34,636 bases of DNA from Candidatus Aenigmatarchaeota archaeon (lineage in GTDB: Archaea > Aenigmatarchaeota > Aenigmatarchaeia > Aenigmatarchaeales > JAHLMR01), in contig JAHLMR010000005.1 of the NCBI GenBank assembly GCA_018920255.1, positions 1 to 34,636 of the forward strand. The letters run 5' to 3'. The position numbers were made by a program, and so were the translations under genes. This document shows, in pieces, positions 947-34,467 of the stretch (the stretch's first letter is position 1; each line of letters opens with the position of its first letter). The notes beneath the pieces were generated by a model that worked only from the letters and a program-made list of their open reading frames with translations, searched no databases and was not told the DNA's origin.

Positions 947-2155
947 CTATTCAATTTTCCATCTTAAAATAGCGCCAATTCCACCTAAACCATAAAACTG
1001 TTCTCCTTCTTTTGTATCCCTTGAAATTAATTCAATATTTGTACCATACTCTTTAGCAAGATCTTCAAAACTTTCAATTATACCTCTTTTCCCTAAAATA
1101 TTTGGCTTACTATTACAAGAGCTACATTTTATATTTTCTTCTGATTTACCAAAAACTTTTTCTGAATTTCCACAACTACAAACAATTTCAAATTCATAGT
1201 ATTCTAAATTTTCTGAAATTAAAATTGTTTCAACCGCACCTGCAATAACAGCATTTTTAACAGATTCTAATCCATAAGTTACTAATCCAGTTTCTTTTTG
1301 AAGATGTGTAAAAAACTTATTTAAAATTTCTTTTTCTTTTTGTATAGCAGCACCTGAAAGTACGTTTTTACTTTTTTCAACAAGTTCTTGAAGCCCATAT
1401 TCATCTGTATATCCAACATCAACAACATCTAAAACCTTTTTCTTTAATTCTGTATCAAGATAATCACCATTATAAAAATCAGATTTAGATGGACCTGGAC
1501 CACCTATTATTATACCTAAAATATTAATTGGTAATAATTCTTTAACACTTTCTGCTATTTCTTTAAAAAAATCATTTATTAATCCTTCCCTTACTCTTTG
1601 AAATCTCATTTGAGATTGACCACCTTTAATAAATTTTCCAGGTACAATAGAATCTAATTTTCTTAAAGTTTGAATTGTTTTTCCTTTTAAAATTCCTATT
1701 GTAGCTTCTTTAGTATCCATAACCAAAAGACCATAAACTTCTTTTTCCTTAATAATTTCTAAAAGAGGACTTAATTCAAATTTTTGATCACACCAATATA
1801 ATTTTATTTTTATAGGTTCAGGCGGCTCTAATGCCCAAATTTTAATATCACTCACTCCTTCTTTTTCTGAAACATTTCCACAAAAAATTACAAGTCCGTT
1901 TGGTGGAGTTTCTTTGTATAGTTTTAAATGTTGAATTATTTTTTCTAAAGCATCAACAACATTTTTTCTTGTAGATTTTGATTTAATATTTAATGCGGTT
2001 CCTTGTTCACTTTTTATTTGTGCAGCAATATCATTAATATTATATCCAGAAGGAATGTAAACACTAACAAGTTCAGTATGTCTGCCCTTTATTTTTTCAA
2101 GATCTTCAATAAGCTTTTTTAATTTATATTTAGGATCTTCTGTCATATCAAACAC
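947..2155 (-). CDS. prf1: Peptide chain release factor aRF1
   Basis: 402 aa; NIKS motif (LNIKSKSTRKNV), GGQ motif (FIKGGQSQMRFQRVREG), GGPGPSKSDF, C-terminal Cys pairs CSCGN/CSSC. Confidence 0.96.
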   Translation of the reverse strand: MFDMTEDPKYKLKKLIEDLEKIKGRHTELVSVYIPSGYNINDIAAQIKSEQGTALNIKSKSTRKNVVDALEKIIQHLKLYKETPPNGLVIFCGNVSEKEGVSDIKIWALEPPEPIKIKLYWCDQKFELSPLLEIIKEKEVYGLLVMDTKEATIGILKGKTIQTLRKLDSIVPGKFIKGGQSQMRFQRVREGLINDFFKEIAESVKELLPINILGIIIGGPGPSKSDFYNGDYLDTELKKKVLDVVDVGYTDEYGLQELVEKSKNVLSGAAIQKEKEILNKFFTHLQKETGLVTYGLESVKNAVIAGAVETILISENLEYYEFEIVCSCGNSEKVFGKSEENIKCSSCNSKPNILGKRGIIESFEDLAKEYGTNIELISRDTKEGEQFYGLGGIGAILRWKIE

Positions 2156-2187
2156 TTATTTTTAAAAGAATTTAAAATAAATTTTAG

Positions 2188-2784
2188 TTATACAAACTTT
2201 TTCCCTTCTTCTATTCCAAATTCAAATGAAGCTAAATTTTGTTCAACATTTCTTTTTATCGAGCATTTTATTGCTTTAATTATATTTTCTTTTTTTAATG
2301 GAATTAAACCTAAAGAAAATGCAAAACCTACTAATGCTATATTTCCATAAATAGGATTTCCAAATTTATTTTCACAATTTTTAGATAAATTTACAAAATA
2401 TATCTTTTTACTAAATTCCTTTAACATTTCCTTTATCTCTTCTTCAGAGGGGTAATGTTCATTTAAAATATTAGAATAAGGTGATTTGACTGGATTGTTA
2501 TCAATTATAAAAACTGTTTTTTCCTTACTTCCATATTTTGCATATCTTAATGCTTCAGAAGGTTCTGTAGCAATTATTAAATCTGCTTCTCCACGAGGAA
2601 TTGTTGGAGAATGAACATTTCCAAATCTTACAAAAACTGGTATTGAACCTCCTCTTTGTGAAAGACCATGCAATTGAAGACCCATAACATATTTTTCTTC
2701 AAATTCGGCAGCCCTAGCTATAACAACACCAGAAGTAAGCACTCCTTCACCACCAATTCCAGCTATAAGTATATTATATTTCAT
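2188..2784 (-). CDS. iorB: Indolepyruvate:ferredoxin oxidoreductase, beta subunit
   Basis: 198 aa; NILIAGIGGEGVLTSGVVIARAA...GLSQRGGSIPVFVRFG, typical of the POR gamma/IorB fold; overlaps iorA start. Confidence 0.92.
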   Translation of the reverse strand: MKYNILIAGIGGEGVLTSGVVIARAAEFEEKYVMGLQLHGLSQRGGSIPVFVRFGNVHSPTIPRGEADLIIATEPSEALRYAKYGSKEKTVFIIDNNPVKSPYSNILNEHYPSEEEIKEMLKEFSKKIYFVNLSKNCENKFGNPIYGNIALVGFAFSLGLIPLKKENIIKAIKCSIKRNVEQNLASFEFGIEEGKKFV

Positions 2785-4634
2785 TTTCTTTCACCTTGAA
2801 ATGCTTTTATAGCCTTTGCTGGGCAAATTTGTGAACACACAGAACAGCCCCAACAAAGTGAAGTATCTATCCAATATTTTTTACCATTTTCATCTCTTTG
2901 AATTGCAGGGCATGCAAATTTATCAATACATATTCCGCATTTTGTACATTTTTCTTGGTTTATTTGGAATTTAACAAAATCTTTTCCTTGCGAAAGTATT
3001 CTTCTCCTCATAAGAAGTCTACATTCTCCTCTTGCTATTAATACTCCTAATTCATTTGATTTCCAAAGTTTTTTCATTTTTTCCTGAAGTTCTTTTTGAT
3101 TCCAAGTATTAGCAATTTCAACGTTTTTTATTCCGATTGCTTTTACTATATCTTCTATTTTTATTTTATCTGTTGGTCCAAAACTATTAATTCCGGTTCC
3201 TGGATTTGGTTGATGTCCTGTCATAGCTGTTATTGAATTATCTAAAATTATAACAATTGGAGCAGAATTATTATATTTCATATTTATTATTCCTGGAATT
3301 GCTGCATGGAAAAATGTTGAATCACCAATAAAAACAACCGGACGTTTTGCTCCAACTTTATAAAATCCATGTGCAAACCCAGTACTTGCTCCCATTGATA
3401 TATCAAAATCTTGCGTTTTAAAAGGTTCATATATTCCTAATATATAACATCCAATATCTCCTGGCATAGGAGTATCTTTATCTACAATCTCTCTAATAGC
3501 AAAGAATGTTGATCTATGAGGACAACCTGGGCATAAAGCAGGTTTTCTAGTTGGAATTTTCATTTTTTTAATTAATTCATCTTCCTTGTTCCAATCTTTA
3601 ATTTTTATATTTAAAATAGGTGCAATTTTAGAATAAATTAAATCTGTTTCTAATTCATCAATTCTTGGAAATAAATCTTTTCCATATATTTTTAATTTAG
3701 GGTTAACATCTTTTGCAATTTGTCTTACATATTCTTCTATAAAAGGTTCAAGCTGTTCAACAACTATAACAACATCTAAATTTTTTATAAATTTAGAAAT
3801 AAATTTTTTTGGAAATGGATAAATAATATTTAGTTTAGCAATTTTTGCATAATTATAAATTTCTTTTTCCATTAAATATTCATAACATACTCCAGAAGTT
3901 ATAATACCTATCTTTGAATTTTCTTTTCCTGTTTCTATGTTAAAATTTTCATATTCTTTTTCTATTTCTTCTAGTTTTTTTAATACATTTTCATGTTGTT
4001 TTTGTATACCAGGTGTTATATTATAATACTTTTCAAAGTTTTTTTCAAAATTTCCTTTTGTTTTAATATTTTTAGGAATGTTTTTTAATTCAACTGTTCC
4101 TATAGCATGATTTACTTTTGTAGTTGTATGAAGTATAACTGGAATTTGATACTTTTCTGATAATTTAAATGCTTCTATAGTAAAATCTTTCGCTTCTTGT
4201 GGATTTGATGGCTCTAACATTGGTATATTTCCCATCCTTCCAACCCACCGCGTATCTTGTTCTGACTGAGCACTACTCCAACCATGAGGATCATCAGCAA
4301 CAACATAAACAAGCCCGGCATTAACACCTGTATAAACTACTGGAAGTAAAGAATCTAAAGCAACGTTTAATCCAAAATGTTTTACTGCAGTTAACGCTTT
4401 AACTCCACAAAAAGCAGCTCCAGCAGCAACTTCAAATGCAACTTTTTCATTTGTACTCCATTCAAAATATATTTTTGCATCCTTTGCAATACTTGCTAAC
4501 GCATTTCCAATTTCTGAACTTGGGGTTCCTGGGTAACATGCAACTAAGCCAACTCCTGCTTCTAATGCTCCACGAGCAATTGCCTCATTTCCAAGAAGCA
4601 CAATTTTTTTATTTTCTTCAAGTAAATATGACAT
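2781..4634 (-). CDS. iorA: Indolepyruvate:ferredoxin oxidoreductase, alpha subunit
   Basis: 617 aa; GNEAIARGALEAGVGLVACYPGTPSSEI, TPP domain PALCPGCPHRSTFFAI..GDIGCYILG, C-terminal two-cluster ferredoxin domain CTKCGICIDKFACPAI..CWGCSVCSQICPAKAI. Confidence 0.95.
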   Translation of the reverse strand: MSYLLEENKKIVLLGNEAIARGALEAGVGLVACYPGTPSSEIGNALASIAKDAKIYFEWSTNEKVAFEVAAGAAFCGVKALTAVKHFGLNVALDSLLPVVYTGVNAGLVYVVADDPHGWSSAQSEQDTRWVGRMGNIPMLEPSNPQEAKDFTIEAFKLSEKYQIPVILHTTTKVNHAIGTVELKNIPKNIKTKGNFEKNFEKYYNITPGIQKQHENVLKKLEEIEKEYENFNIETGKENSKIGIITSGVCYEYLMEKEIYNYAKIAKLNIIYPFPKKFISKFIKNLDVVIVVEQLEPFIEEYVRQIAKDVNPKLKIYGKDLFPRIDELETDLIYSKIAPILNIKIKDWNKEDELIKKMKIPTRKPALCPGCPHRSTFFAIREIVDKDTPMPGDIGCYILGIYEPFKTQDFDISMGASTGFAHGFYKVGAKRPVVFIGDSTFFHAAIPGIINMKYNNSAPIVIILDNSITAMTGHQPNPGTGINSFGPTDKIKIEDIVKAIGIKNVEIANTWNQKELQEKMKKLWKSNELGVLIARGECRLLMRRRILSQGKDFVKFQINQEKCTKCGICIDKFACPAIQRDENGKKYWIDTSLCWGCSVCSQICPAKAIKAFQGERK

Positions 4635-7127: not shown

Positions 7128-8894
7128 ATGCAAACAAAATTTATTTTTATTCTTGGAGGAGGATATTCTGGCTTAGGTAAGGGTATTGTAACTTCTTCAA
7201 TAGCAAGAATTATTAAAAATTTAGGATTTAAAATAAAAATTTGTAAAATTGATCCTTATTTTAATTTTGGTGCTGGAGATCAAAATCCAAACGAACACGG
7301 AGAAGTTTTTGTAACAGAAGATGGCGGGGAAATTGATCAGGATTTTGGATATTATGAAAGATTTACTGCAGTTCCATGTAAAAAAGATTATAATATAACT
7401 TCTGGAAAAATATTTTGGAATGTAATAAATAATGGGCTCAAGGGAAAATATTTAGGAAAAACGATACAATTAATACCTCATATAAGAGATGAAATTAAAA
7501 GACAATTATATGAAATTTCAAAAGATACAGATTTCTTAATAGTAGAAGTTGGTGGTACAATAGGAGATGATGAATCTTTAATTTTTATTAGAGCAATAAG
7601 TAGTATGATTTATGAAGATAATATTCAATCAATGATTTTTGTTTTAGCACCACTAATATTTAATGATGCTGTTGGTGAACCAAAAACAAAAATAGTACAA
7701 AATGCAATAAAAGAATTAAATACATTAGGAATTAAAGCAGATGCAATAATTTTAAGAACTCAATATGCTAACTTTTTAGATGAAAAGAGAAAGGAAAAAA
7801 TAAATATTTTTTGTAATGTTTCAAAGGAGAATATTTTTGTTGACCCTGATATAGATACTGTTTATAAATTACCATTAATATTTTCAGAACAAAATCTTAC
7901 AAAAACAATAATTAAAAAATTTTCATTAGAAAGAAAGGAAGAAAATTGGAATGGATATTTAGATTTTATAAAAAAGATTGATGATGCATTAAAAAGAATA
8001 CCTATTGCATATGTTGGAAAATATGTTAGGGAGGGTAGTGGAGTACATAAAGATGCATATATTTCAGTTGAGGAAGCATTAAAACGTGCATGTATAGAAT
8101 TTGGTTTTCTTCCGGAAATACATAGAATTGATGCGTGCGAATGTGAAAAAGATTTATCAAAACTTTCTAAAGTTGCAGGTATAATTGTACCTGGTGGTTA
8201 TGGTTCAAGAGGGTTTGAAGGAAAAATTAATGCAATAAAATTTGCAAGAGAAAATAATATTCCATTTTTAGGTCTATGTCTTGGCCTTCAGTTAGGAGTA
8301 ATAGAATTTGCAAGAAATGTCTGTGGAATAAACGGAGCACATACAGATGAACAGGATGAAGAAGGTTATAGCTGTAATGGAGAGCATGTTGTTTGTATTC
8401 TTCCTGAGCAAGAAAAAATAAGAAAGGATTATGGTTTTATTGGAACACAAAGACTTGGAGATTTTGCATGCATTTTTAAAAAAGATTCGTTTATACAAAA
8501 ATTATATGAAAAATTAGGAAGACCTTCTAAAGAAGAAAGAGAAAAAATAAAAAAATATCCAGAATATAGAATTGGAAAAATAAAGGAAGATGATTTTATT
8601 GTTTTTGAAAGGCATAGACATAGAAGAGAAATAAATCCAAAATATCATGAAATTTTAGAAAAAAATGGAATGGAGTTTTTAGGAGTGCACAATACATTAG
8701 ATGGAACAATACTTGTTGAAGTTGCAACAATAAAAGGAAAACCTTGGTTAGCAACACAATTTCACCCAGAATTTAATTCAAATTATCTTTATCCAAACCC
8801 ATTTTTTTATTGGTTTGCAGGTCTCGCACAAAAAAGATGGGAAGTTATGCAGCAAGAAAATTTAGAAAAATTAAAAACAATAGTTAAAAAATGA
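7128..8894 (+). CDS. pyrG: CTP synthase (divergent amidoligase domain plus class I GATase)
   Basis: 588 aa; SGLGKGIVTSSIARI, HGEVFVTEDGGEIDQDFGYYERF, VEVGGTIGDDES, GATase FLGLCLGLQLGVIEFARN and QFHPEF. Confidence 0.93.
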   Translation: MQTKFIFILGGGYSGLGKGIVTSSIARIIKNLGFKIKICKIDPYFNFGAGDQNPNEHGEVFVTEDGGEIDQDFGYYERFTAVPCKKDYNITSGKIFWNVINNGLKGKYLGKTIQLIPHIRDEIKRQLYEISKDTDFLIVEVGGTIGDDESLIFIRAISSMIYEDNIQSMIFVLAPLIFNDAVGEPKTKIVQNAIKELNTLGIKADAIILRTQYANFLDEKRKEKINIFCNVSKENIFVDPDIDTVYKLPLIFSEQNLTKTIIKKFSLERKEENWNGYLDFIKKIDDALKRIPIAYVGKYVREGSGVHKDAYISVEEALKRACIEFGFLPEIHRIDACECEKDLSKLSKVAGIIVPGGYGSRGFEGKINAIKFARENNIPFLGLCLGLQLGVIEFARNVCGINGAHTDEQDEEGYSCNGEHVVCILPEQEKIRKDYGFIGTQRLGDFACIFKKDSFIQKLYEKLGRPSKEEREKIKKYPEYRIGKIKEDDFIVFERHRHRREINPKYHEILEKNGMEFLGVHNTLDGTILVEVATIKGKPWLATQFHPEFNSNYLYPNPFFYWFAGLAQKRWEVMQQENLEKLKTIVKK

Positions 8895-10123
8895 TTTTTA
8901 TGAAAATTTTACTTAAAAATTGCAGATATATTTTAACTCAAAATAAAAATAGAGATATCTTAGAAAACCAGTCTATTTTAATTGAAGAAAATAAAATTTC
9001 AAAAATATCAAAGTCTATTAAAGGAAATTTTGATGAAATAATAGATTGTAGCAAAAAATTAGTAATGCCTGGATTAATAAATTGTCATACTCATGTTGCA
9101 ATGACTTTAATGAGGGGCATTGCAGATGATATGAATTTAGAAGATTTTTTGAAAAAAACTTTTCGCTTAGATAAAGAAATGGATAAAGATAAAGTTAAAA
9201 AAGGAGCAGAAATTGGAATTATTGAAATGATAAAATCTGGAACAACATGTTTTCAAGATTTATATTATTATGAAGATGTTGTTGCTGAAGTTGCAGAAAA
9301 ATTTGGAATGCGTGCAGTGCTTGCATGGGCTGTTTTAGATAAAGAATACACAACCCAAAAAGGAGAACCATTGAAAAATGCAATTAAATTTTCTAAATCT
9401 ATAAAATCAGAATTAATAAAACCAGCATTTGGTCTTCAAGGAGTTTATGTATGTTCTAAAGAAACCTTTGAAAAGTCGAAAAAATATGCTAATGAAAAAA
9501 AACTACTACTTCATATGCATTTAAGTGAAACAAGAAAAGAAGTAGAAGAGCATATTAAAAAAACAGGAAAATCCCCAACAAAATGGCTTTATGAAATAGG
9601 ATTTTTATCTGAAAATTTATCTGCTGCCCATTGTGTTTGGCTTACAGATGAAGAAATAAAAATGTTAAATGAAAAAAATGTTTCAGTTGTTCATTGTCCT
9701 TCTTCTAATTTAAAACTTGCATCAGGCTGCATGCCCTGGAAAGAGATGAAAAAATTTGGAGTAAATATAAGCTTAGGAACAGATGGCTGTGCAAGTAATA
9801 ATAATTTAGATATGTTTGAAGAAATGCATATTTCTGCACTTATTCATAAATATGCTTCTATGGATGCAAGAGTTGCAAATGCACAAGAAATTTTAGATTC
9901 TGCTACTATTTTTGGTGCTAAAGCATTAAAAATTAATTCTGGGTCTGTTGAAGAAGGAAAGTTGGCTGATTTAATAACTCTGGACATTTCAGATTTAAGA
10001 TGGTTTCCTTTAAATAAAAACACATTAATTTCGCATATAGTTTATTCTATAAATAGTTCCTGTGTTATTGATAGTATAATAAATGGAAAAATTATTATGC
10101 GAGAAAGAAAAATTTTAAAATAA
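8891..10123 (+). CDS. Amidohydrolase, 5'-methylthioadenosine/S-adenosylhomocysteine deaminase-like
   Basis: 410 aa; VMPGLINCHTHVAMTLMRGIADDMNLEDFL, HMHLSETRKEVEEH, AHCVWLTDEEI, LGTDGCASNNNLDMFEEM. ATG overlaps the pyrG stop (ATGA); true start may be the ATG at 8900. Confidence 0.88.
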   Translation: MIFMKILLKNCRYILTQNKNRDILENQSILIEENKISKISKSIKGNFDEIIDCSKKLVMPGLINCHTHVAMTLMRGIADDMNLEDFLKKTFRLDKEMDKDKVKKGAEIGIIEMIKSGTTCFQDLYYYEDVVAEVAEKFGMRAVLAWAVLDKEYTTQKGEPLKNAIKFSKSIKSELIKPAFGLQGVYVCSKETFEKSKKYANEKKLLLHMHLSETRKEVEEHIKKTGKSPTKWLYEIGFLSENLSAAHCVWLTDEEIKMLNEKNVSVVHCPSSNLKLASGCMPWKEMKKFGVNISLGTDGCASNNNLDMFEEMHISALIHKYASMDARVANAQEILDSATIFGAKALKINSGSVEEGKLADLITLDISDLRWFPLNKNTLISHIVYSINSSCVIDSIINGKIIMRERKILK

Positions 10124-12117: not shown

Positions 12118-12936
12118 ATGCGTTTTGTTTATTTAGAAATATTAAGACCTTCTGTATGTATTCTTACTGCCTTTGCAGTTTTAATAGGAGCTCTATTATC
12201 AAATAATTTTATTTTTACAAATACTATTTATGCTATTTTAGCAGCAGTATTAATAGCTGGATCAGGGAATATTTTAAATGATTTGTATGATTACAATATT
12301 GATTTAATAAACAAACCAAAAAGGCCACTTCCTTCTAAAAGAATAAGTATAAAATCAGCAAAAATATATGCCTTTATTCTTTTATTTTTTGCTATTATAT
12401 TTTTAATCCTTCTTCCTATTTATGCAATTCTTCTTGGTATATTTAATATATTAATTGTTTTTTTGTATGCATCAAGAATAAAAAGAACAATATTTGCTTC
12501 ATTTGTAGATAGTTGGTTAAGCGCATCAACTTTTATTTTTGGTTATTTTTCAGTTAGCCAAAATTTAATTAATACACCTATTATTATACTTGCAATGATG
12601 GCTTACTCTGCAAATGTAGGAAGAGAGATTGCTAAAGCAATAGAAGACATTAAAGGGGATTTAGCAGCAAATGTAAAATCAATACCAATTGTAGGTGGAA
12701 AAAATATTGCAATATTATTTTCTATATTTTTTGTTTTTTTAGCTATTATAATTAGTCCAATTCCATTTTTCATTAACATTTTTGGATATCTGTATCTCAT
12801 TTTAATATTCATCGCAGATATTCTTTTTATTGTTTCTTGTTATATGCTTTTCTTTTCCGCATCAAAATCTCAAAAAATTATGAAAATAGCAATGTTTATA
12901 GCACTTTTAGGGTTTTTAGCAGGAATTTATTTATAA
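12118..12936 (+). CDS. UbiA-family prenyltransferase (geranylgeranylglycerol-phosphate geranylgeranyltransferase-like)
   Basis: 272 aa, multi-TM; NDLYDYNIDLINKPKRPLPSKRIS (NDxxDxxxD) and a second Asp-rich region REIAKAIEDIKGD. Confidence 0.9.
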   Translation: MRFVYLEILRPSVCILTAFAVLIGALLSNNFIFTNTIYAILAAVLIAGSGNILNDLYDYNIDLINKPKRPLPSKRISIKSAKIYAFILLFFAIIFLILLPIYAILLGIFNILIVFLYASRIKRTIFASFVDSWLSASTFIFGYFSVSQNLINTPIIILAMMAYSANVGREIAKAIEDIKGDLAANVKSIPIVGGKNIAILFSIFFVFLAIIISPIPFFINIFGYLYLILIFIADILFIVSCYMLFFSASKSQKIMKIAMFIALLGFLAGIYL

Positions 12937-13356
12937 AAGATCAAAATCAATTTCTATTGGTTCTTTAGCTTTTCCACAATTCCAATTTCTACATATTTCC
13001 GGTCTAACAGGATAAATCATACATTTATGGGTTTCAATATCTAAAAAATAGCAAGGAAATGCAATTTTACTGCGGTGTCTTGGTATTCCGTCACAATTTT
13101 CTCTAGAAAGTAAAAATGCTACATAATTATTATCATTATATTTTATATCAACCCAGTTTTTCTCATTTAAAATTTCTTGAATTGTTTCTCGGTATTCTTT
13201 TTTAAATATATCCGGATCTTCATTGGCAGCATTAATAATGCTTGCAACATCATTTAATGTTATAATAAGTCCTGCTGGTGGAAAATAACAGCAGTGTGCA
13301 GTTTTACATTTTTCACATTCAGGATAATTGCTATTATATTGATTTGTGCTTTTCAT
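12931..13356 (-). CDS. YkgJ-like cysteine-cluster protein (putative zinc/iron-chelating)
   Basis: 141 aa; CEKCKTAHCC ... PCYFLDIETHKCMIYPVRPEICRNWNCGK matches the YkgJ/UPF0153 Cys pattern. Confidence 0.85.
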   Translation of the reverse strand: MKSTNQYNSNYPECEKCKTAHCCYFPPAGLIITLNDVASIINAANEDPDIFKKEYRETIQEILNEKNWVDIKYNDNNYVAFLLSRENCDGIPRHRSKIAFPCYFLDIETHKCMIYPVRPEICRNWNCGKAKEPIEIDFDLL

Positions 13357-13380: not shown

Positions 13381-13415
13381 CCTTTAAAAATCTTTTTAAT
13401 GAGTTCGACAAAATT
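13381..13415 (-). promoter_or_regulatory. Island repeat/promoter element, copy A (upstream of ykgJ-like gene 1)
   Basis: + strand cctttaaaaatctttttaatgagttcgacaaaatt. Minus strand reads TGTCGAA-N6-AAAAAGATTTTTAAAGG; TATA-like TTTTTAAAG lies ~26 nt from the ATG. Confidence 0.65.
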
Positions 13416-13417
13416 TT

Positions 13418-14140
13418 TTATAAAACCTTAATTTCTGTATAAATAGCATCTTTCTCTGCTTTTAAAATTTTTTCAAGATTACTTATATCAAATCCATTAG
13501 CTATTTTTATATTTATATTATTGGTAATAGTATTTCTCAGTCTCCTTAATTTATTTTCCATTTCACCCGTAATAAATTCATATTTTTCATTTAAAAAAAT
13601 CTCTTTAACATTTTTATTATTTTTTAATATACCATTTGTATCAGTTAAAATTAACAAATTCTTAGCATTATAATAATTTGCTAAATATCCTGCTATAGTA
13701 TCGCTTGAAATAGCGCAATATCCTAAATTCAAATCTTTAACAATTCCACCAGTTATTAAAATAAAATATTCTTTTATATAATTTTCAATTTTTTCATTAT
13801 GAAATTTATTTATTTCATGATGATTTTTATTTCCAGTACTCTTTTTTTCAAATAATTCATTTGGAAGATATTTTACTAGTTTTTTATTATCTATTTTTTC
13901 TAAATTTTTTTTAAGTAAATTATTTATTTCTTCTGCGTGTTTTTCTTTAATCTTAATATTATTATTTTTAGATGTATCTGTTAAATTATATTTAATAGTT
14001 AAATCATGAAGTTTTTTACCACAACCAATTACAAAAATATTATATTCATTTTTTACAGTATTAAAAATTTCATTAAATAACTTAACATTTATATTTTCAT
14101 TTTCATATAATACAGAACCGCCTATTTTAATTACGTTCAT
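13418..14140 (-). CDS. Divergent amino-acid-kinase-fold protein (UMP kinase / isopentenyl phosphate kinase-like), substrate unknown
   Basis: 240 aa; IKIGGSVLYENENINV at N-terminus, LILTDTNGILKN, TGEMENKLRRL; starts 5 nt after the upstream fusion gene ends. Confidence 0.75.
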   Translation of the reverse strand: MNVIKIGGSVLYENENINVKLFNEIFNTVKNEYNIFVIGCGKKLHDLTIKYNLTDTSKNNNIKIKEKHAEEINNLLKKNLEKIDNKKLVKYLPNELFEKKSTGNKNHHEINKFHNEKIENYIKEYFILITGGIVKDLNLGYCAISSDTIAGYLANYYNAKNLLILTDTNGILKNNKNVKEIFLNEKYEFITGEMENKLRRLRNTITNNINIKIANGFDISNLEKILKAEKDAIYTEIKVL

Positions 14141-14145
14141 AAAAA

Positions 14146-15981
14146 TCAGTATTGAACTAGCGTATGTACATCATATTTTTCAAGCCCAATTCTTCCATTT
14201 TTTGTTGTAAGTTCTAATAAACTAAAAATTCCTGCGACTTTTCCACCAGCTATTTCTATTAAATCTACCATATTTCTCATTGTTTCTCCTGTTGCTATCA
14301 TATAATCTACAACTAGCACTCTATCGCCAGGTTTAATAGCTTCTTTTTGTAAAAGAATAACTCTTGAAGGATTATATTCATGAGCAAAAATTCTTTTATA
14401 GCAATCCCCTGGTAAATCCTTTCTGAATAAAGGAATTATTCCTGCTTTTAATTTGTGTGCTATTGCACCAGCCCAAAGCATTCCTTGCATATCCTTTGAA
14501 GCCACATATTTAATATTTGAAAATCTATAATATTCAGAAATATAGTTTATTAATTTATTAAAGAATTTTCCATCTCTTAAAAGTTGTGTTGTATCTTTAA
14601 AAATTATTCCTGGAATTGGAAAATCAATAAAAGTTCTAACTCTTTCTTTTATTTCCTTTTTAATTTCAAAATATTTGTTTATTTGTCTTAAAAATTCTCT
14701 TATTTTTTCATTATTAAGTATATATTCTAATGCTTGAGATTTATTTTCATTTTTAAACAATTCTTTTAAATTAAATGATTCAAGTCCTATTATTTCATTT
14801 GTATCAAAAATAATTTTTTGTGGTTCGATAAATTTTTTTACAGCAAATATTTTTATAAATTTATCATTTATTTTTTGAGGGTTTTTAGAACAATGTCTTA
14901 TTTTTGTTATTGGTATTAATTCTTCTCTAGAAACATCTAAAGAAAGTTCTTCTTTTAATTCTCTTATAGCAGCATCTTCATATGTTTCTCCTTTTTTTAA
15001 ATGACAGGAAACTGAAAAATCATATTTTTTATCATACCTTCTTTTAGCTAAAACTATTTCATTATTTTCATTGAATAATAAAACTACTGATTCTCGATGT
15101 AATAAACCCTTTTTATGAGTAATTTCTCGTGTTTCATTCTCAATAATTTTATCTGCATCATTTACTATATCTAAAACATCATTTTCTTCTTTTATTTCTG
15201 GCTTCATTGGAAGTTTTCTTATCCAAATATTTTCATATTTAGTTGGTAAAAGAATTTTTCCATTTCTTTTTATAGAGAATTTATTAATTTCTTTAATTAT
15301 TTTTTCTTTTATCTTTTCATCACATGAATTCCATTTATCTGATAAAATAAATGTTAAAAGCTTATCCATTTCTTCTTTATTATTTATACAATTTGTAATA
15401 TCTATGTAGGAATTTACATTTTCTGAAATGTATGGAATTTGTAAATTTGTAAGAATGTTTCTTAAAACTTTACCTGTAGATGATCCTCCACCAACAATTT
15501 TCTTTAATTTACAATGTGGGCTTTCTTCATTTTTTATAGAAATTATACATGTTCCGTTTTCATTTAATATATTAAAAATTTTAAATAAAGGATTTCCATT
15601 ATTTTCATTTTTCCATCCATCTAAAAAATAAATACTATTTATTGCTAATATTACATCTAATTTATCTTCATAATTTATATTTTCAAATTTCTCATTTATT
15701 ATTTTAAAATTTATATTTATTTTTTCAGCGTTTTCTTTAAACATTTCTAACATTTTAGTAGAAGGATCAACTCCTACAACAAAAACATTTTTATTAGTAT
15801 TTTCAATTATTTTAAGATCTACATCACCAGTTCCGCATCCTATACACATAATTTTAGAATTATTATCTAATTTTAATTTTGAAGATAAACTCTTAACAAT
15901 TTCATATTTATTATTTACTTTATCTAAATAATTCATATAAATATTGTCATCTTCATTGAAAAATCTCAAAATATTATTCAT
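14146..15981 (-). CDS. Three-domain fusion: class I SAM methyltransferase, IDI-like Nudix, adenine-phosphoribosyltransferase-like domain
   Basis: 611 aa. aa ~1-262: IMCIGCGTGDVDLKII..VVGVDPSTKML. aa ~268-425: DIVNDADKIIENETREITHKKGLLHRESVVLLFN..SVSCHLKKGETYEDAAIRELKEELSLD. aa ~440-611: RVRTFIDFPIPGIIFKDTTQLLRD..IKPGDRVLVVDYMIATGETMRNMVDLIEIAGGKVAG. Confidence 0.88.
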   Translation of the reverse strand: MNNILRFFNEDDNIYMNYLDKVNNKYEIVKSLSSKLKLDNNSKIMCIGCGTGDVDLKIIENTNKNVFVVGVDPSTKMLEMFKENAEKININFKIINEKFENINYEDKLDVILAINSIYFLDGWKNENNGNPLFKIFNILNENGTCIISIKNEESPHCKLKKIVGGGSSTGKVLRNILTNLQIPYISENVNSYIDITNCINNKEEMDKLLTFILSDKWNSCDEKIKEKIIKEINKFSIKRNGKILLPTKYENIWIRKLPMKPEIKEENDVLDIVNDADKIIENETREITHKKGLLHRESVVLLFNENNEIVLAKRRYDKKYDFSVSCHLKKGETYEDAAIRELKEELSLDVSREELIPITKIRHCSKNPQKINDKFIKIFAVKKFIEPQKIIFDTNEIIGLESFNLKELFKNENKSQALEYILNNEKIREFLRQINKYFEIKKEIKERVRTFIDFPIPGIIFKDTTQLLRDGKFFNKLINYISEYYRFSNIKYVASKDMQGMLWAGAIAHKLKAGIIPLFRKDLPGDCYKRIFAHEYNPSRVILLQKEAIKPGDRVLVVDYMIATGETMRNMVDLIEIAGGKVAGIFSLLELTTKNGRIGLEKYDVHTLVQY

Positions 15982-16002: not shown

Positions 16003-16037
16003 CCTTTAAAAATCTTTTTGTTGATTTCGACAGAAAA
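16003..16037 (-). promoter_or_regulatory. Island repeat/promoter element, copy B (upstream of the fusion gene)
   Basis: + strand cctttaaaaatctttttgttgatttcgacagaaaa; same layout as copies A and C, TATA-like element ~23 nt from the ATG at 15981. Confidence 0.65.
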
Positions 16038-16048
16038 CGTTTTGAAAA

Positions 16049-16393
16049 TTATTCTATTTTACATATTTTTGGTCTAACAGAAGAAATCATACATTCTTCT
16101 TTTTCACTTAGAAAATGACATGGATATACAGAAATTCCATGTACTTCCTTTTTGTTTTTTTCTGTATTAGGAATTAAAAAAGGATAACTATTATAATACT
16201 CAACCCATTTTTTCTCATTTAAAATTTCTTGAATTGTTTTTTGATATTCTTTTTTAAATATATAAAGATAATTATTAGCAGCATTAATAATGCTTGCAAC
16301 ATCATTTAATGTTATGCCAATTCCAAATTTTGGAAAATAACAGTCTTCTTGAAAATGATGATTACTATTAAAATATCTAATACTACACATCAT
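16049..16393 (-). CDS. Degenerate YkgJ-like paralog (cysteine motifs mostly lost)
   Basis: Start revised to MMCSIRYFNS... at 16393 because the longer ORF (to 16495) runs into tRNA-Pro. Shares GITLNDVASIINAAN..IFKKEYQKTIQEILNEKKWV and SVRPKIC with the 12931-13356 protein. Confidence 0.65.
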   Translation of the reverse strand: MMCSIRYFNSNHHFQEDCYFPKFGIGITLNDVASIINAANNYLYIFKKEYQKTIQEILNEKKWVEYYNSYPFLIPNTEKNKKEVHGISVYPCHFLSEKEECMISSVRPKICKIE

Positions 16394-16413: not shown

Positions 16414-16448
16414 TCTTTAAAAATCTTTTTGTTGACTTCGACAAAAAA
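16414..16448 (-). promoter_or_regulatory. Island repeat/promoter element, copy C (upstream of ykgJ-like gene 2, just downstream of tRNA-Pro)
   Basis: + strand tctttaaaaatctttttgttgacttcgacaaaaaa; near-identical to copy B; TATA-like element ~22 nt from the ATG. Confidence 0.65.
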
Positions 16449-16452
16449 CTAA

Positions 16453-16528
16453 TGGTGGGCCCAGGGTGATTTGAACACCCGTTTTCAGCTCCCAAGGCTG
16501 ATGTCCTACCAAGCTAGACTATGGGCCC
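16453..16528 (-). tRNA. tRNA-Pro (anticodon TGG), CCA encoded
   Basis: Minus strand GGGCCCATAGTCTAGCTTGGTAGGACATCAGCCTTGGGAGCTGAAAACGGGTGTTCAAATCACCCTGGGCCCACCA; 7-bp acceptor, anticodon stem TCAGC/GCTGA with loop CTTGGGA, T-arm GGGTG-TTCAAAT-CACCC. Confidence 0.95.
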
Positions 16529-30135: not shown

Positions 30136-33100
30136 ATGAAAAAACTAATAGTTTTTATTTTTTTAATATTAATTTTTAGTTATTGTAGTTATGCAAAAAA
30201 TGAAATAAATGAAAAAATTTCAGAGAAACTACTATTAGAAATTAAAGAAAAACCATATTCAGAAATTCCTATTATAGTAATTTTAAATGAAAGCATAAAT
30301 AATTTTGATTTTTCTAAATTTGAAGGAAAAATAAAGTATAAATATAAATCAATAAATGGATTTTCTGGAAAAATTTATGCAAATAAAATAGAAAATTTTG
30401 CTAAAAATTCAGAAGTAATTAAAATTTATTATGATGAGATAATTTCAATTCCTCCTTTTGAAAAAAATATTAATATTTCTTTAATTAATAGTACTCAAAT
30501 TATAGGGGCAAATTATGTATGGGAAAATCTAGGCTATTCTGGAAAAGGAATAAAAGTTGCTGTTATTGATACAGGAATAAATTATTCACATCCTGATTTA
30601 GGTGGTGGGTTTGGAAGTGGATATAAAGTTATAAGTGGTTATGATTTTGTTAATAATGATAATGACCCAATGGATGATAATGGTCATGGAACTCATGTTG
30701 CTGGAATAATTGCTGCAAATGGAAATATTAAAGGTGTTGCTCCTAATGCTTCTCTTTATGCTGTTAAGGTATGTGATTCTTCGGGGCGGTGTAGTAACAG
30801 CAATATTATTGCTGGTATTGATTGGTCTATTGCAAATAATGCAGATATAATAAGCATGTCTTTAGGTGGATTGATAATACCAAACGATGACTTTTCAGAT
30901 GTTATTAATCAAATTGTAAATTATGCTGTTGAAAAAGGAATATCTGTAATTGTTGCTGCTGGAAATAAAGGTCCTGGAACTGGAACAATATCATGTCCAG
31001 GATGTGCTATTAAAGTTATAACAGTTGGTGCATCAAATAGTAATAATACTATTGATATTTCAGATGATTCAATTGCATCTTTTAGTAGTAGGGGGCCTTC
31101 TGCATTTGGAAGATTAGATCCTGAAGTTGTAGCACCTGGCGTTAATATAAATTCTACATCAATTTCTGGAAGTTATATTACTCTTTCAGGAACTTCAATG
31201 GCAACTCCTTTTGTTTCTGGAGCTGTTGCTCTTTTAAAAGAAGCAAAACCTTATCTTACGCCTTTAGAAATAAGAGAAATTTTAATGCATACTTCTGAAA
31301 ATATCAGTGGTCATGTATTTGAAAAAGGAGCTGGAATAATAAATATTTCAAAGGCAATAATAAACAATATTTCTATTTATATAAATGATAATGATAGATT
31401 GGAATTTAGTATTATTCCTGGATATAATTCAACTGGAAAAATTCTTATAATAAATAATAATTCAAATTTAGTAAATTTAAGTTTTAATATTGAAGAAGAT
31501 GCAACAGATTTAGAAAAAAATAATATTATTTCTAAAAACAATTTTATTTTACCAAATGAAATTATAGTTGAACCAAATTCTAGAAAAATATTTAAAATTA
31601 GTTTTCTTGCACCTCAAGATGCTAAGCCGGGAATATATGGAACAACATTATTAATAAAAGAAATAAATAACAATATAACATATAGAATACCAATTTCTAT
31701 AACTATACCATTATTTGGTTCTGGAAATATTTCTGGATTAGTAAATGATGGCGATATTATTTACTATAAAATAAAATCATACAATGGAACATCATTAAAT
31801 GTTACATTAACTTGGAATAACACTAATGATGATTTAGATCTTTATCTTTTTGCACCAAATGGAAGATTAATAAATTATTCAGAAAGCCTTGCTGGAACAC
31901 TTGAAACATTGAGTCTTTCTAAAATGAATTATGATGAATACTGGATAGTAGTTTATGCTTATAAAGTATCTGAAATTAGTGAATATAATATAAGTGTTGA
32001 ATTTAAAAATTGGGGATTTATTGTATCTCCAAATTTTTGGCAGGGAAAATTAAGAAAAAATGAAAATATTAATTTAACATTTACAATTACAAATGATCAA
32101 AATATTAAAAATAATACAAATATTAGTGTAAAATATTTAAAAGAAGGAGAAAAGTATTTTAATACAAGTAATGTTAATTCTGGTTTAAATTTAATTTGGA
32201 GTAGAAATTTAACAGGCCTTAATACAACTTTTACAAAATATTTAAATGCATCTATAAAATGGAGTAATTATAATAATGATATTGATTTATTTTTTGCATA
32301 TTATAATGGAAGTAATTGGTTTTTTAGCGATAGATTTAGTTCTCAACATTTTAACAGTATTTTAAAAGAAGCATATGAAGAAATTAAAATGATAGACATA
32401 CAAGAATTTTTAAAATCAGAAAAATATACAGACATAGGACTTCTTACTTATAATTATAATAATCCAGAAGATGTAAATATAACTGTAAATTTAATTGATA
32501 TAGCTCCTTGGGATGCTGCAAAAGTTAGTGAAAATGTAGTTAATTTAAGTGCTAATGAAATAAAAGAAATAAATGTTACAATAAATAGTTCTTTACTTGA
32601 AGTTGGAAAAACATATAATGCTATATTTTCTATTTATAACTCCTCTTATGATTTTGCAACAATAAATATAGAAATCGAAGTTTTAAGCTATTCTGTTTGT
32701 AAAAGTGGTTGTGATTTTACAAGTATACAAGAAGCAATAAATAATGCAACAGATGGTGAAACAATATATGTTTATTCAGGAATATATAATGAAAATTTAA
32801 TTATTAATAAATCTATAAATCTTATAGGTGAAAATCAATATACAACTATAATAAATGCATCTGAAATTGCTATAAATATTTCTGCAAATTATGCTAGTGT
32901 TTCAAATTTTAATATAAATACAAATTCAAATATTGGAATATATTTAAATGCAAATAATTCAAAAATTTCAGAGAATTTTTTAAATACTTCTAATAAAATA
33001 GGAATTTATTTAGAAAATGTAAAAAATAACAACATAGAAAAAAATGTAATTAATTCTTATGAAAGCGGTTTAATTTTAAATAGTTCAGTTGAAAATTTAA

Positions 33101-34467
33101 TAAAAAATAATTTTATTTACAATAGTTCTTATGGAATTTTACTTGAAAACTCATCTAATAATTTATTAATAAATAATACTTTATTAAATAATACTTATGA
33201 ATTTTTTTCTAAAAATGATTCAATAAATAATTCTGCAATTAATACAAATATAAGTTTTATTATTTCGTTTAATGGAAAGGATTTTGGAATAAAAGAATAC
33301 AATTTAGCTTTACCTTTACCATTTAAATTTAAACATTTCAATAAAACAATTAATATTTCTAATACATCTTTAGATTCTTGGTTTGAATTAAATGTTAGTT
33401 ATTCTGATGAGGAAGTTAGAGGAATGAATGAAAGTAGAGTATCAATATACAAATGGAATTTTAGTGATTGGAATGAATTAGATAATGTAAGTATAAATAC
33501 AGAAATAAATAATGTTTATGTAAATACCTCAAATTTTGGAATAATATCTTTATTAGGAATTGATGATATTGGCCCCTTAATAACTATACACTCACCCGAA
33601 AACAAGGTATATAATTCAAATTTTGTGGATTTAAAAGTTTCAGCAAATGAAGATGTTAGTAGTTGGTGGTATTCAATAGGTAAAAATAATATAACCTTTA
33701 TTCCAAATATAACACTTCAAAATCTTGAAAATAAACAATATATCTTATATGTTTGGGCAAATGATATATTTAATAATACTGGATTTTCAAGCATTTCCTT
33801 TACTATAAATGTTCAACAAAATTATAATATTGGTGATGGAAGTTTTGGTGGTGGAGTTACTGGTAGTTTTATAATAGAAAATAAAACTAACATTTCTGAA
33901 TATACGGTTCCTCCAGTTGAATTAATTAATATAGAAAAAGTAAATAACTCTTTAACTATAATTTTAGAAAAATCTTCTGAAATAGGAATAGAAAATATAA
34001 GTTTTATTGTTTTAAAACCAAAGTATAATTTATCTTTTTATTTTTATAACTATACAAACGAATCATTTAAATTTGAAAATTTAAAAGTATATAAATTTAT
34101 TAGAATAGAAACAAAAAATATTAATGATAATGAAATTTCAAACGTGTCTATAATTTTTAAAGTTTCTAAAAACTGGATTTTAGAAAATAATATTGATGAA
34201 AATAAAATATATGTTTATAGATTTAATAAAACTTGGGAAAAACTTCAAACAGAATTAATAAAATACGATAAAGATTTTATTTACTATAATGTATTATCAC
34301 CAGGACTTTCTTCTTTTGTAATAGCAGGAGAAGAGAAAACAAAAATATTAGAATCTGAAATAAATATAACTTCAAAAAAAGAAGTTGATAGAAAATATGA
34401 ATTTTTAATATTACTTATTATAGTTTTTATTGTTATAGTTTTTGTAATTTTATATAAAAAAACTTAA
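30136..34467 (+). CDS. Large secreted S8 (subtilisin-like) protease with beta-helix and PGF-pre-PGF-like regions, C-terminal TM anchor
   Basis: 1443 aa; signal peptide; catalytic motifs VAVIDTGINYSHPDL, GHGTHVAGIIAANG, SGTSMATPFVSGAVALL; NosD-like SIQEAINNATDGETIYVYSGIYNENLIINKSINLIGEN; C-terminal NWILENNIDENKIYVYRFNKTWEKLQTE..LSPGLSSFVIAGE; TM FLILLIIVFIVIVFVILYKKT. Confidence 0.93.
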   Translation: MKKLIVFIFLILIFSYCSYAKNEINEKISEKLLLEIKEKPYSEIPIIVILNESINNFDFSKFEGKIKYKYKSINGFSGKIYANKIENFAKNSEVIKIYYDEIISIPPFEKNINISLINSTQIIGANYVWENLGYSGKGIKVAVIDTGINYSHPDLGGGFGSGYKVISGYDFVNNDNDPMDDNGHGTHVAGIIAANGNIKGVAPNASLYAVKVCDSSGRCSNSNIIAGIDWSIANNADIISMSLGGLIIPNDDFSDVINQIVNYAVEKGISVIVAAGNKGPGTGTISCPGCAIKVITVGASNSNNTIDISDDSIASFSSRGPSAFGRLDPEVVAPGVNINSTSISGSYITLSGTSMATPFVSGAVALLKEAKPYLTPLEIREILMHTSENISGHVFEKGAGIINISKAIINNISIYINDNDRLEFSIIPGYNSTGKILIINNNSNLVNLSFNIEEDATDLEKNNIISKNNFILPNEIIVEPNSRKIFKISFLAPQDAKPGIYGTTLLIKEINNNITYRIPISITIPLFGSGNISGLVNDGDIIYYKIKSYNGTSLNVTLTWNNTNDDLDLYLFAPNGRLINYSESLAGTLETLSLSKMNYDEYWIVVYAYKVSEISEYNISVEFKNWGFIVSPNFWQGKLRKNENINLTFTITNDQNIKNNTNISVKYLKEGEKYFNTSNVNSGLNLIWSRNLTGLNTTFTKYLNASIKWSNYNNDIDLFFAYYNGSNWFFSDRFSSQHFNSILKEAYEEIKMIDIQEFLKSEKYTDIGLLTYNYNNPEDVNITVNLIDIAPWDAAKVSENVVNLSANEIKEINVTINSSLLEVGKTYNAIFSIYNSSYDFATINIEIEVLSYSVCKSGCDFTSIQEAINNATDGETIYVYSGIYNENLIINKSINLIGENQYTTIINASEIAINISANYASVSNFNINTNSNIGIYLNANNSKISENFLNTSNKIGIYLENVKNNNIEKNVINSYESGLILNSSVENLIKNNFIYNSSYGILLENSSNNLLINNTLLNNTYEFFSKNDSINNSAINTNISFIISFNGKDFGIKEYNLALPLPFKFKHFNKTINISNTSLDSWFELNVSYSDEEVRGMNESRVSIYKWNFSDWNELDNVSINTEINNVYVNTSNFGIISLLGIDDIGPLITIHSPENKVYNSNFVDLKVSANEDVSSWWYSIGKNNITFIPNITLQNLENKQYILYVWANDIFNNTGFSSISFTINVQQNYNIGDGSFGGGVTGSFIIENKTNISEYTVPPVELINIEKVNNSLTIILEKSSEIGIENISFIVLKPKYNLSFYFYNYTNESFKFENLKVYKFIRIETKNINDNEISNVSIIFKVSKNWILENNIDENKIYVYRFNKTWEKLQTELIKYDKDFIYYNVLSPGLSSFVIAGEEKTKILESEINITSKKEVDRKYEFLILLIIVFIVIVFVILYKKT

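Follow-up and report, generated by a model that had tools for sequence, protein, structure and literature searches.

We describe here a gene whose single 611-aa product joins a methyltransferase, a Nudix domain and a phosphoribosyltransferase, together with the gene of an amino-acid-kinase-fold protein that follows it, in a window of 34,636 nucleotides (the whole stretch of DNA that was analysed, positions 1 to 34,636 of contig JAHLMR010000005.1, assembly GCA_018920255.1 of Candidatus Aenigmatarchaeota archaeon). The fusion appears to be an undescribed architecture, and our tentative preference is that fusion and kinase together provide a small accessory pathway by which a methylated, nucleotide-like compound is made or salvaged. 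The host is a metagenome-assembled genome of the Aenigmatarchaeota with 552,063 bases in 25 contigs, 94.6% complete and with 25.7% GC.

The three-domain frame noticed by the first-pass annotation was borne out, as were the three motifs that it quoted (CIGCGTGD, the Nudix box and VVDYMIATGET, Table 1). Every domain exceeded its Pfam gathering cut-off: Methyltransf_31/25 (44 bits, residues 39-151), NUDIX (44 bits, residues 295-413) and Pribosyltran (35.4 versus 26.3 bits, residues 465-589), as did the kinase with AA_kinase (79 bits). The gene lies in the middle of its contig, the frame is uninterrupted across the domain junctions, and the chance that a random frame of 611 codons stays open was about 1e-30 with the local base composition. 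A frameshift or a contig join was therefore judged unlikely, because one open frame covers all three domains far from the contig ends. The kinase gene has the same orientation and starts 5 nt after the stop of the fusion, exactly as had been annotated. For the comparisons that follow, the domains of the fusion were aligned one by one, a joint 26-row alignment with single-domain homologues having misaligned the adenine phosphoribosyltransferases (APRTs).

Pfam assigned domain 1 to generic methyltransferase families only, and its sole full-length homologue in the phylum (L100) was 29% identical. A profile made of these two sequences matched human histamine N-methyltransferase (HNMT) over the whole stretch between the S-adenosylmethionine (SAM) motif and the C-terminus (E 6e-6) and retrieved four more relatives from DPANN archaea, giving a six-member family in which G48, G50 and G52 of the SAM motif were invariant. 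With the profile of the six members, HNMT was the first match in the PDB (E 5e-21, the next one being 2.5e-12), and when the window was left out of the family profile, the fusion was still recovered among the proteins of its genome (E 8e-26, residues 7-256), ahead of the second-best methyltransferase (2e-5). The AlphaFold2 (AF2) model of domain 1 was moderate (predicted local distance difference test, pLDDT, 68; predicted template modelling score, pTM, 0.66); in Foldseek, its top PDB match was HNMT (1jqd/1jqe, E 7e-16, TM-score 0.73-0.75), which led the next fold by more than three orders of magnitude in E. According to this model, domain 1 has the histamine N-methyltransferase fold, with the class I Rossmann fold and the HNMT C-terminal region matched over the full length and the SAM glycine motif retained, although the identity to HNMT is about 21% and the domain differs in being archaeal and fused to Nudix and phosphoribosyltransferase domains.

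The first-pass annotation had described domain 2 as an IDI-like Nudix domain, which held for the superfamily but not for the isomerase. The N-terminus HKKGLLHRE of the IDI / YfcD-like superfamily is present, and the box of a Nudix hydrolase was found with its catalytic glutamates E332, E344 and E345 retained, as REL(K)EEL, in an alignment with 16 phylum homologues. In contrast, the catalytic cysteine that precedes the Nudix box in type I isopentenyl-diphosphate isomerases is absent, Ser325 standing at this position, and the first position of the box is Cys326 instead of the usual Gly. IDI-type NCBIfam models matched below their cut-off, and the first Nudix match in the PDB was geranyl-diphosphate phosphohydrolase (E 1e-6). 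The true IDI of the genome is a separate gene, reading TNTCCSHPRKGE, which lies on contig C9 and overlaps the gene of the canonical isopentenyl phosphate kinase (IPK). Since the isomerase Cys is missing and the Nudix Glu residues are kept, domain 2 is probably a phosphohydrolase and not an isomerase.

Domain 3 belongs to the type I phosphoribosyltransferase superfamily, having a phosphoribosyltransferase domain with a phosphoribosyl pyrophosphate (PRPP) loop, and its homology to APRT is full-length. The NCBIfam APRT model spanned residues 440-611 (E 1e-35; 122.8 bits, just short of the cut-off of 125), the PDB APRT entry 9vlf was matched at E 1e-25, and the identity to 15 phylum APRTs was 30-40%. 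Compared with these 15 proteins, the domain retains FPxPGIxFKD, the EY pair and the ATG of the PRPP loop. It lacks, however, the signature of a strict APRT: residues 497-501 are DMQGM where APRTs have ESRGF, and the loop reads DY...ATGET in the fusion versus DD...ATGGT in all 15. Its N-terminus is fused to the Nudix domain, whereas APRTs are free-standing or follow a methylthioadenosine phosphorylase (MTAP). An altered specificity is likely for domain 3, and a loss of activity is possible. A canonical APRT is encoded elsewhere in the host genome (contig C7).

What had been annotated as an amino-acid-kinase-fold protein could be narrowed to an IPK-like one. The profile scores alone were tied between acetylglutamate kinase (argB, 53.7 bits) and IPK (53.0 bits) among the NCBIfam models, the latter below its cut-off of 120 bits. 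All five phylum matches and the paralogue of the genome itself, however, read as IPKs, and 16 positions are invariant with seven IPKs, among them K5, G7-G8-S9, G39, G41, the phosphate-binding H45, T191-G192-M194 and K197. The 33 best PDB matches of the AF2 model were IPK chains, a result that is partly circular because the input alignment consisted of IPKs. Judged from its sequence, the kinase is a diverged IPK paralogue with the fold, the active-site Lys, the glycine loops, the phosphate-binding His and the TGxMxxK of the archaeal enzymes, from which it differs in its identity of 21-27%, its shorter length and the loss of the Asp of DVTGGM. The kinase gene ranks 9 of 342 in GC, being among the most AT-rich in the genome, and both kinase and methyltransferase contain about twice as much Asn as the genome average, a composition that points to fast drift or foreign origin.

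About 940 genomes were searched for the architecture: 156 Aenigmatarchaeota, 34 of a second DPANN group, 371 of a large DPANN phylum and 380 Patescibacteria; for the two larger sets, scoring was confined to the top three candidates of each genome, among which a fusion, if present, should still appear. Outside the host, none of these genomes yielded the three-domain frame, and the fusion-kinase pair was seen in the host genome only. In phage and plasmid records, the matches were partial, falling short of 80% of the fusion in every case and, among those listed, of APRT type, and peptide-pattern scans with the fusion over public genome and viral contigs gave no relative. No description of a methyltransferase-Nudix-phosphoribosyltransferase order was found in the open-access literature, in agreement with the first-pass annotation, which had not recognised it. 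The same annotation had proposed that a frame break between the domains, or homologues encoded in relatives as separate, unlinked genes, would argue against a functional fusion; no break was seen, but in all other genomes seen the constituent domains are indeed separate, unlinked genes.

Independent evidence on the substrate came from the HNMT-like family in other DPANN archaea. In one genome (L277 of G822, 207-2205), an HNMT-like domain of the same family is fused to a SLOG domain (LDcluster4, TIGR00725), and the fusion gene overlaps that of GTP cyclohydrolase II; the SLOG domain is related to the LOG phosphoribohydrolases, and here too the partner is of a base-ribose-phosphate type superfamily, although SLOG stands instead of Nudix and phosphoribosyltransferase and the neighbouring gene is another. 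In a second one (L275 of G809, 1201-3318), the genes of a deoxyribosyltransferase-like protein, a PNP_UDP_1 (PNP/MTAP-like) phosphorylase and an HNMT-like methyltransferase form an overlapping string. Counting the window, three of the six family members are linked to enzymes that form or cleave a base-ribose bond. A further member, fused to an unknown domain (L286 of G1055), lies about 0.8 kb from a phosphoribosyltransferase gene reading as pyrE, which is followed by pyrF. These neighbourhoods, which do not depend on the window, support a nucleobase or nucleotide substrate. At L279:1309-2982, near pyrE/pyrF-like genes, an HNMT-like methyltransferase was seen to be fused to about 260 C-terminal residues forming a domain that had no Pfam match.

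Multi-enzyme proteins ending in an APRT domain also occur in DPANN archaea, as MTAP-APRT proteins of two domains (L236, L238, L246 and L226) and, in one DPANN phylum, as adenosine kinase-MTAP-APRT proteins of 762-831 aa encoded beside S-adenosylhomocysteine (SAH) hydrolase (L240:2536-5028, L241:2561-4882 and L242:4353-6638), apparently one polypeptide for the salvage of SAM by-products. They share with the fusion the C-terminal position of APRT, but they have other partner domains, canonical APRT residues and the SAH hydrolase neighbour, and no PNP_UDP_1 match, that is, no nucleoside phosphorylase domain, was found in the fusion. As regards other Nudix proteins, HAD phosphatase-Nudix fusions were seen in two Aenigmatarchaeota (L027:728-1942 and L117:3436-4671), the former between genes reading as a mevalonate-pathway decarboxylase and mevalonate kinase, which hints at a replaced or extra isoprenoid step, and one aenigmatarchaeon encodes a protein with two Nudix domains in tandem (L105:1-915), which has at least 305 aa and whose frame runs off the contig edge.

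The fusion and the kinase lie in an AT-rich block of minus-strand genes between UbiA and tRNA-Pro(TGG), flanked by two copies of a CxxCxxCC (YkgJ-like) gene (Table 1), a third copy of which was not found in the host genome. A promoter-like repeat precedes the fusion and each of the two copies, and its motif GTCGAANTCANNAAAAAGATTTTTAAAG has exactly three occurrences genome-wide, all within the block, even when up to 5 mismatches were allowed. This motif resembles an archaeal TFB-recognition (BRE)/TATA element and may include an operator; the GTCGAANTCA element inside the triplicated repeat might be such an operator. Two relatives from this order likewise have UbiA close to tRNA-Pro(TGG), but there both genes are on one strand and the cassette is absent. 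The block is a lineage-specific insertion or rearrangement, because these loci of the relatives lack the cassette and have the other relative orientation. Neither an integrase nor a tRNA-derived attachment repeat (a copy of the tRNA 3' end) was found within the window. An ancestral synteny was considered for the closest Nudix relative (G009), which adjoins a methyltransferase and a CxxCxxCC gene, and was dropped, since that methyltransferase does not look related to the HNMT-like one and no relationship of the CxxCxxCC protein could be recognised. Elsewhere in the window, positions 30136-34467 encode a secreted protein of 1443 aa whose sequence suggests a subtilisin-like protease with beta-helix-type repeats behind it.

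Table 1. Features of the fusion-kinase block and its borders (positions in the window; residues of the fusion protein)
Feature	Residues	Position	Strand	Evidence or remark
Fusion gene (methyltransferase, Nudix and phosphoribosyltransferase)	1-611	14146..15981	-	611 aa, single open frame; Pfam, NCBIfam and PDB domain matches
Domain 1, HNMT-like class I SAM methyltransferase	1-258	15208..15981	-	Profile and fold match
SAM-binding glycine motif CIGCGTGD	46-53	15823..15846	-	Sequence
Domain 2, Nudix of the IDI / YfcD-like superfamily	262-415	14737..15198	-	Pfam NUDIX 44 bits
Nudix box CHLKKGETYEDAAIRELKEELSL	326-348	14938..15006	-	Alignment with 16 phylum homologues
Domain 3, APRT-like type I phosphoribosyltransferase	436-611	14149..14676	-	NCBIfam APRT, PDB APRT
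PRPP loop VVDYMIATGET	557-567	14281..14313	-	Second acidic residue replaced by Tyr
Amino-acid-kinase-fold gene, diverged IPK paralogue		13418..14140	-	240 aa, Pfam AA_kinase 79 bits
UbiA gene		12118-12936	+	Block border
CxxCxxCC (YkgJ-like) protein, copy 1		12931..13356	-	PF03692 E 5e-8; Cys motif intact
CxxCxxCC (YkgJ-like) protein, copy 2		16049..16393	-	86% DNA identity to copy 1 over 144 nt; most N-terminal cysteines lost
tRNA-Pro(TGG)		16453..16528	-	ARAGORN; block border
Promoter-like repeat GTCGAAATCAACAAAAAGATTTTTAAAG, upstream of the fusion		16004..16031	-	Motif search
Same repeat, upstream of YkgJ copy 1		13382..13409	-	Motif search
Same repeat, upstream of YkgJ copy 2		16415..16442	-	Motif search

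Canonical APRT, IPK and IDI are encoded elsewhere in the genome; the fusion-kinase cassette is extra, and its copies are therefore free for another substrate, which the altered positions of phosphoribosyltransferase and kinase suggest is neither plain adenine nor isopentenyl phosphate. In the pathway that we tentatively prefer, the APRT-like domain would produce a 5'-monophosphate from PRPP and a purine-like heterocycle. By analogy with HNMT, whose target is the imidazole of histamine, the HNMT-like domain would methylate a heteroaromatic or exocyclic nitrogen. IPK puts a second phosphate onto a monophosphate, and the IPK-like kinase would do so here. The Nudix domain, which has the residues for hydrolysis and not those of the isomerase, could then return the di- or triphosphate to the monophosphate, a step that would serve the salvage of incoming methylated nucleotides or the control of the active form. 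The catalytic positions for hydrolysis, kinase chemistry and glycosyl transfer are mostly retained, the participation of APRT in DPANN multi-enzyme fusions for base salvage also speaks for this pathway, and a channelled pathway, as first annotated, is plausible. The nucleotide-like substrate proposed in that annotation is favoured by the HNMT-like genes found beside nucleobase-glycosidic enzymes; the isoprenoid alternative that it also named was kept, since kinase and Nudix are diverged relatives of IPK and IDI.

Several observations weigh against a methylated-nucleotide pathway. The occurrence in a single genome means that there is no sign of conserved function and allows no selection test; the phosphoribosyltransferase has lost the Arg of ESRGF, one acidic residue of the PRPP loop and the loop Gly that its APRT relatives keep; and the AT- and Asn-richness of kinase and methyltransferase suits fast drift as well as a new function. 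The association of the methyltransferase relies on six loci and a shallow profile, a small and post hoc sample, in which one member beside LysS (L282) and L100, among toxin-antitoxin-like genes, had no base-ribose link. Our confidence in this pathway is limited by the orphan status and by the altered active-site residues. Nearly as likely, though doubtful when taken by itself, is a fusion of unrelated activities, in which the loss of stops and spacers brought three accessory enzymes into one frame as the genome was reduced and became gene-dense, possibly while selection was relaxed, the kinase being a drifting IPK duplicate. The restriction to one genome, the base and Asn composition, the active-site losses, the decay of one flanking YkgJ copy and the HAD-Nudix joins of the relatives, showing that fusions arise readily in the phylum, all agree with it. 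On the other hand, all three domains and the kinase have kept full-length folds and most catalytic residues although such a genome should shed useless genes, and the shared promoter-like repeat, the 5-nt spacing and the nucleobase-linked contexts of the HNMT-like family elsewhere also count against it.

An isoprenoid role seems improbable to us. It would have the IPK-like kinase make a prenyl-type diphosphate, the IDI-like Nudix domain hydrolyse it and the methyltransferase C-methylate it, the phosphoribosyltransferase making a cytokinin-like prenylated adenine nucleotide or being unrelated. The kinase is closest to IPK, the Nudix domain is of the IDI superfamily with geranyl-diphosphate phosphohydrolase as its first Nudix match in the PDB, the genome has an adjacent canonical IPK-IDI pair as well as genes for HMG-CoA synthase (in the window), mevalonate kinase and prenyl synthase, and UbiA adjoins the block; moreover, methylated cytokinins are reported to be made with the help of methyltransferases from the fas locus of Rhodococcus (PMC8234997). 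However, the IDI catalytic Cys is absent, the methyltransferase is HNMT-like and unlike those acting on prenyl diphosphates, no isopentenyltransferase gene adjoins, and UbiA is likewise conserved where the cassette is missing. More improbable still is that the APRT-like domain recycles the adenine of SAM-derived thioethers from the attached methyltransferase, in the manner of the DPANN MTAP-APRT fusions. The adenosine kinase-MTAP-APRT genes beside SAH hydrolase would be its precedent, and an amidohydrolase matching models of 5'-deoxyadenosine and methylthioadenosine (MTA)-SAH deaminases is encoded 3.3 kb away (8891-10123), but the cassette has no nucleosidase or phosphorylase for adenine release and the APRT of the genome, more APRT-like than the fused domain, already does this job. 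The lowest probability was given to a mobile, fast-evolving conflict island for a modified-nucleotide antiviral or a nicotinamide adenine dinucleotide (NAD)/ADP-ribose pathway. The position beside a tRNA gene, the AT-richness, the lineage-specificity, the duplicated genes at the flanks and the toxin-antitoxin-like genes around L100 fit such an island; the missing integrase and tRNA 3' end repeat in the window, a defence library that yielded a weak generic Nudix match only, and phage and viral collections giving single-domain matches or none do not.

The genomes of DPANN archaea are tiny, and little is known of how these organisms manage their nucleotides. If the preferred pathway is true, one protein that combines methylation, phosphohydrolysis and phosphoribosyl transfer would, together with the kinase dedicated to it, offer a compact way of making a new methylated nucleotide. 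It is conceivable, although rather unlikely, that the HNMT-type methyltransferases of DPANN serve in a group of so far unrecognised pathways whose product is a methylated nucleobase or nucleotide metabolite and which different lineages assembled from different base-ribose enzymes (phosphoribosyltransferase, SLOG, nucleoside phosphorylase, GTP cyclohydrolase II). The window cassette, bringing a kinase and a phosphohydrolase of its own, would then be the most compact version. The wider link between HNMT-like and base-ribose enzymes gives a first clue to the role of the archaeal HNMT relatives.

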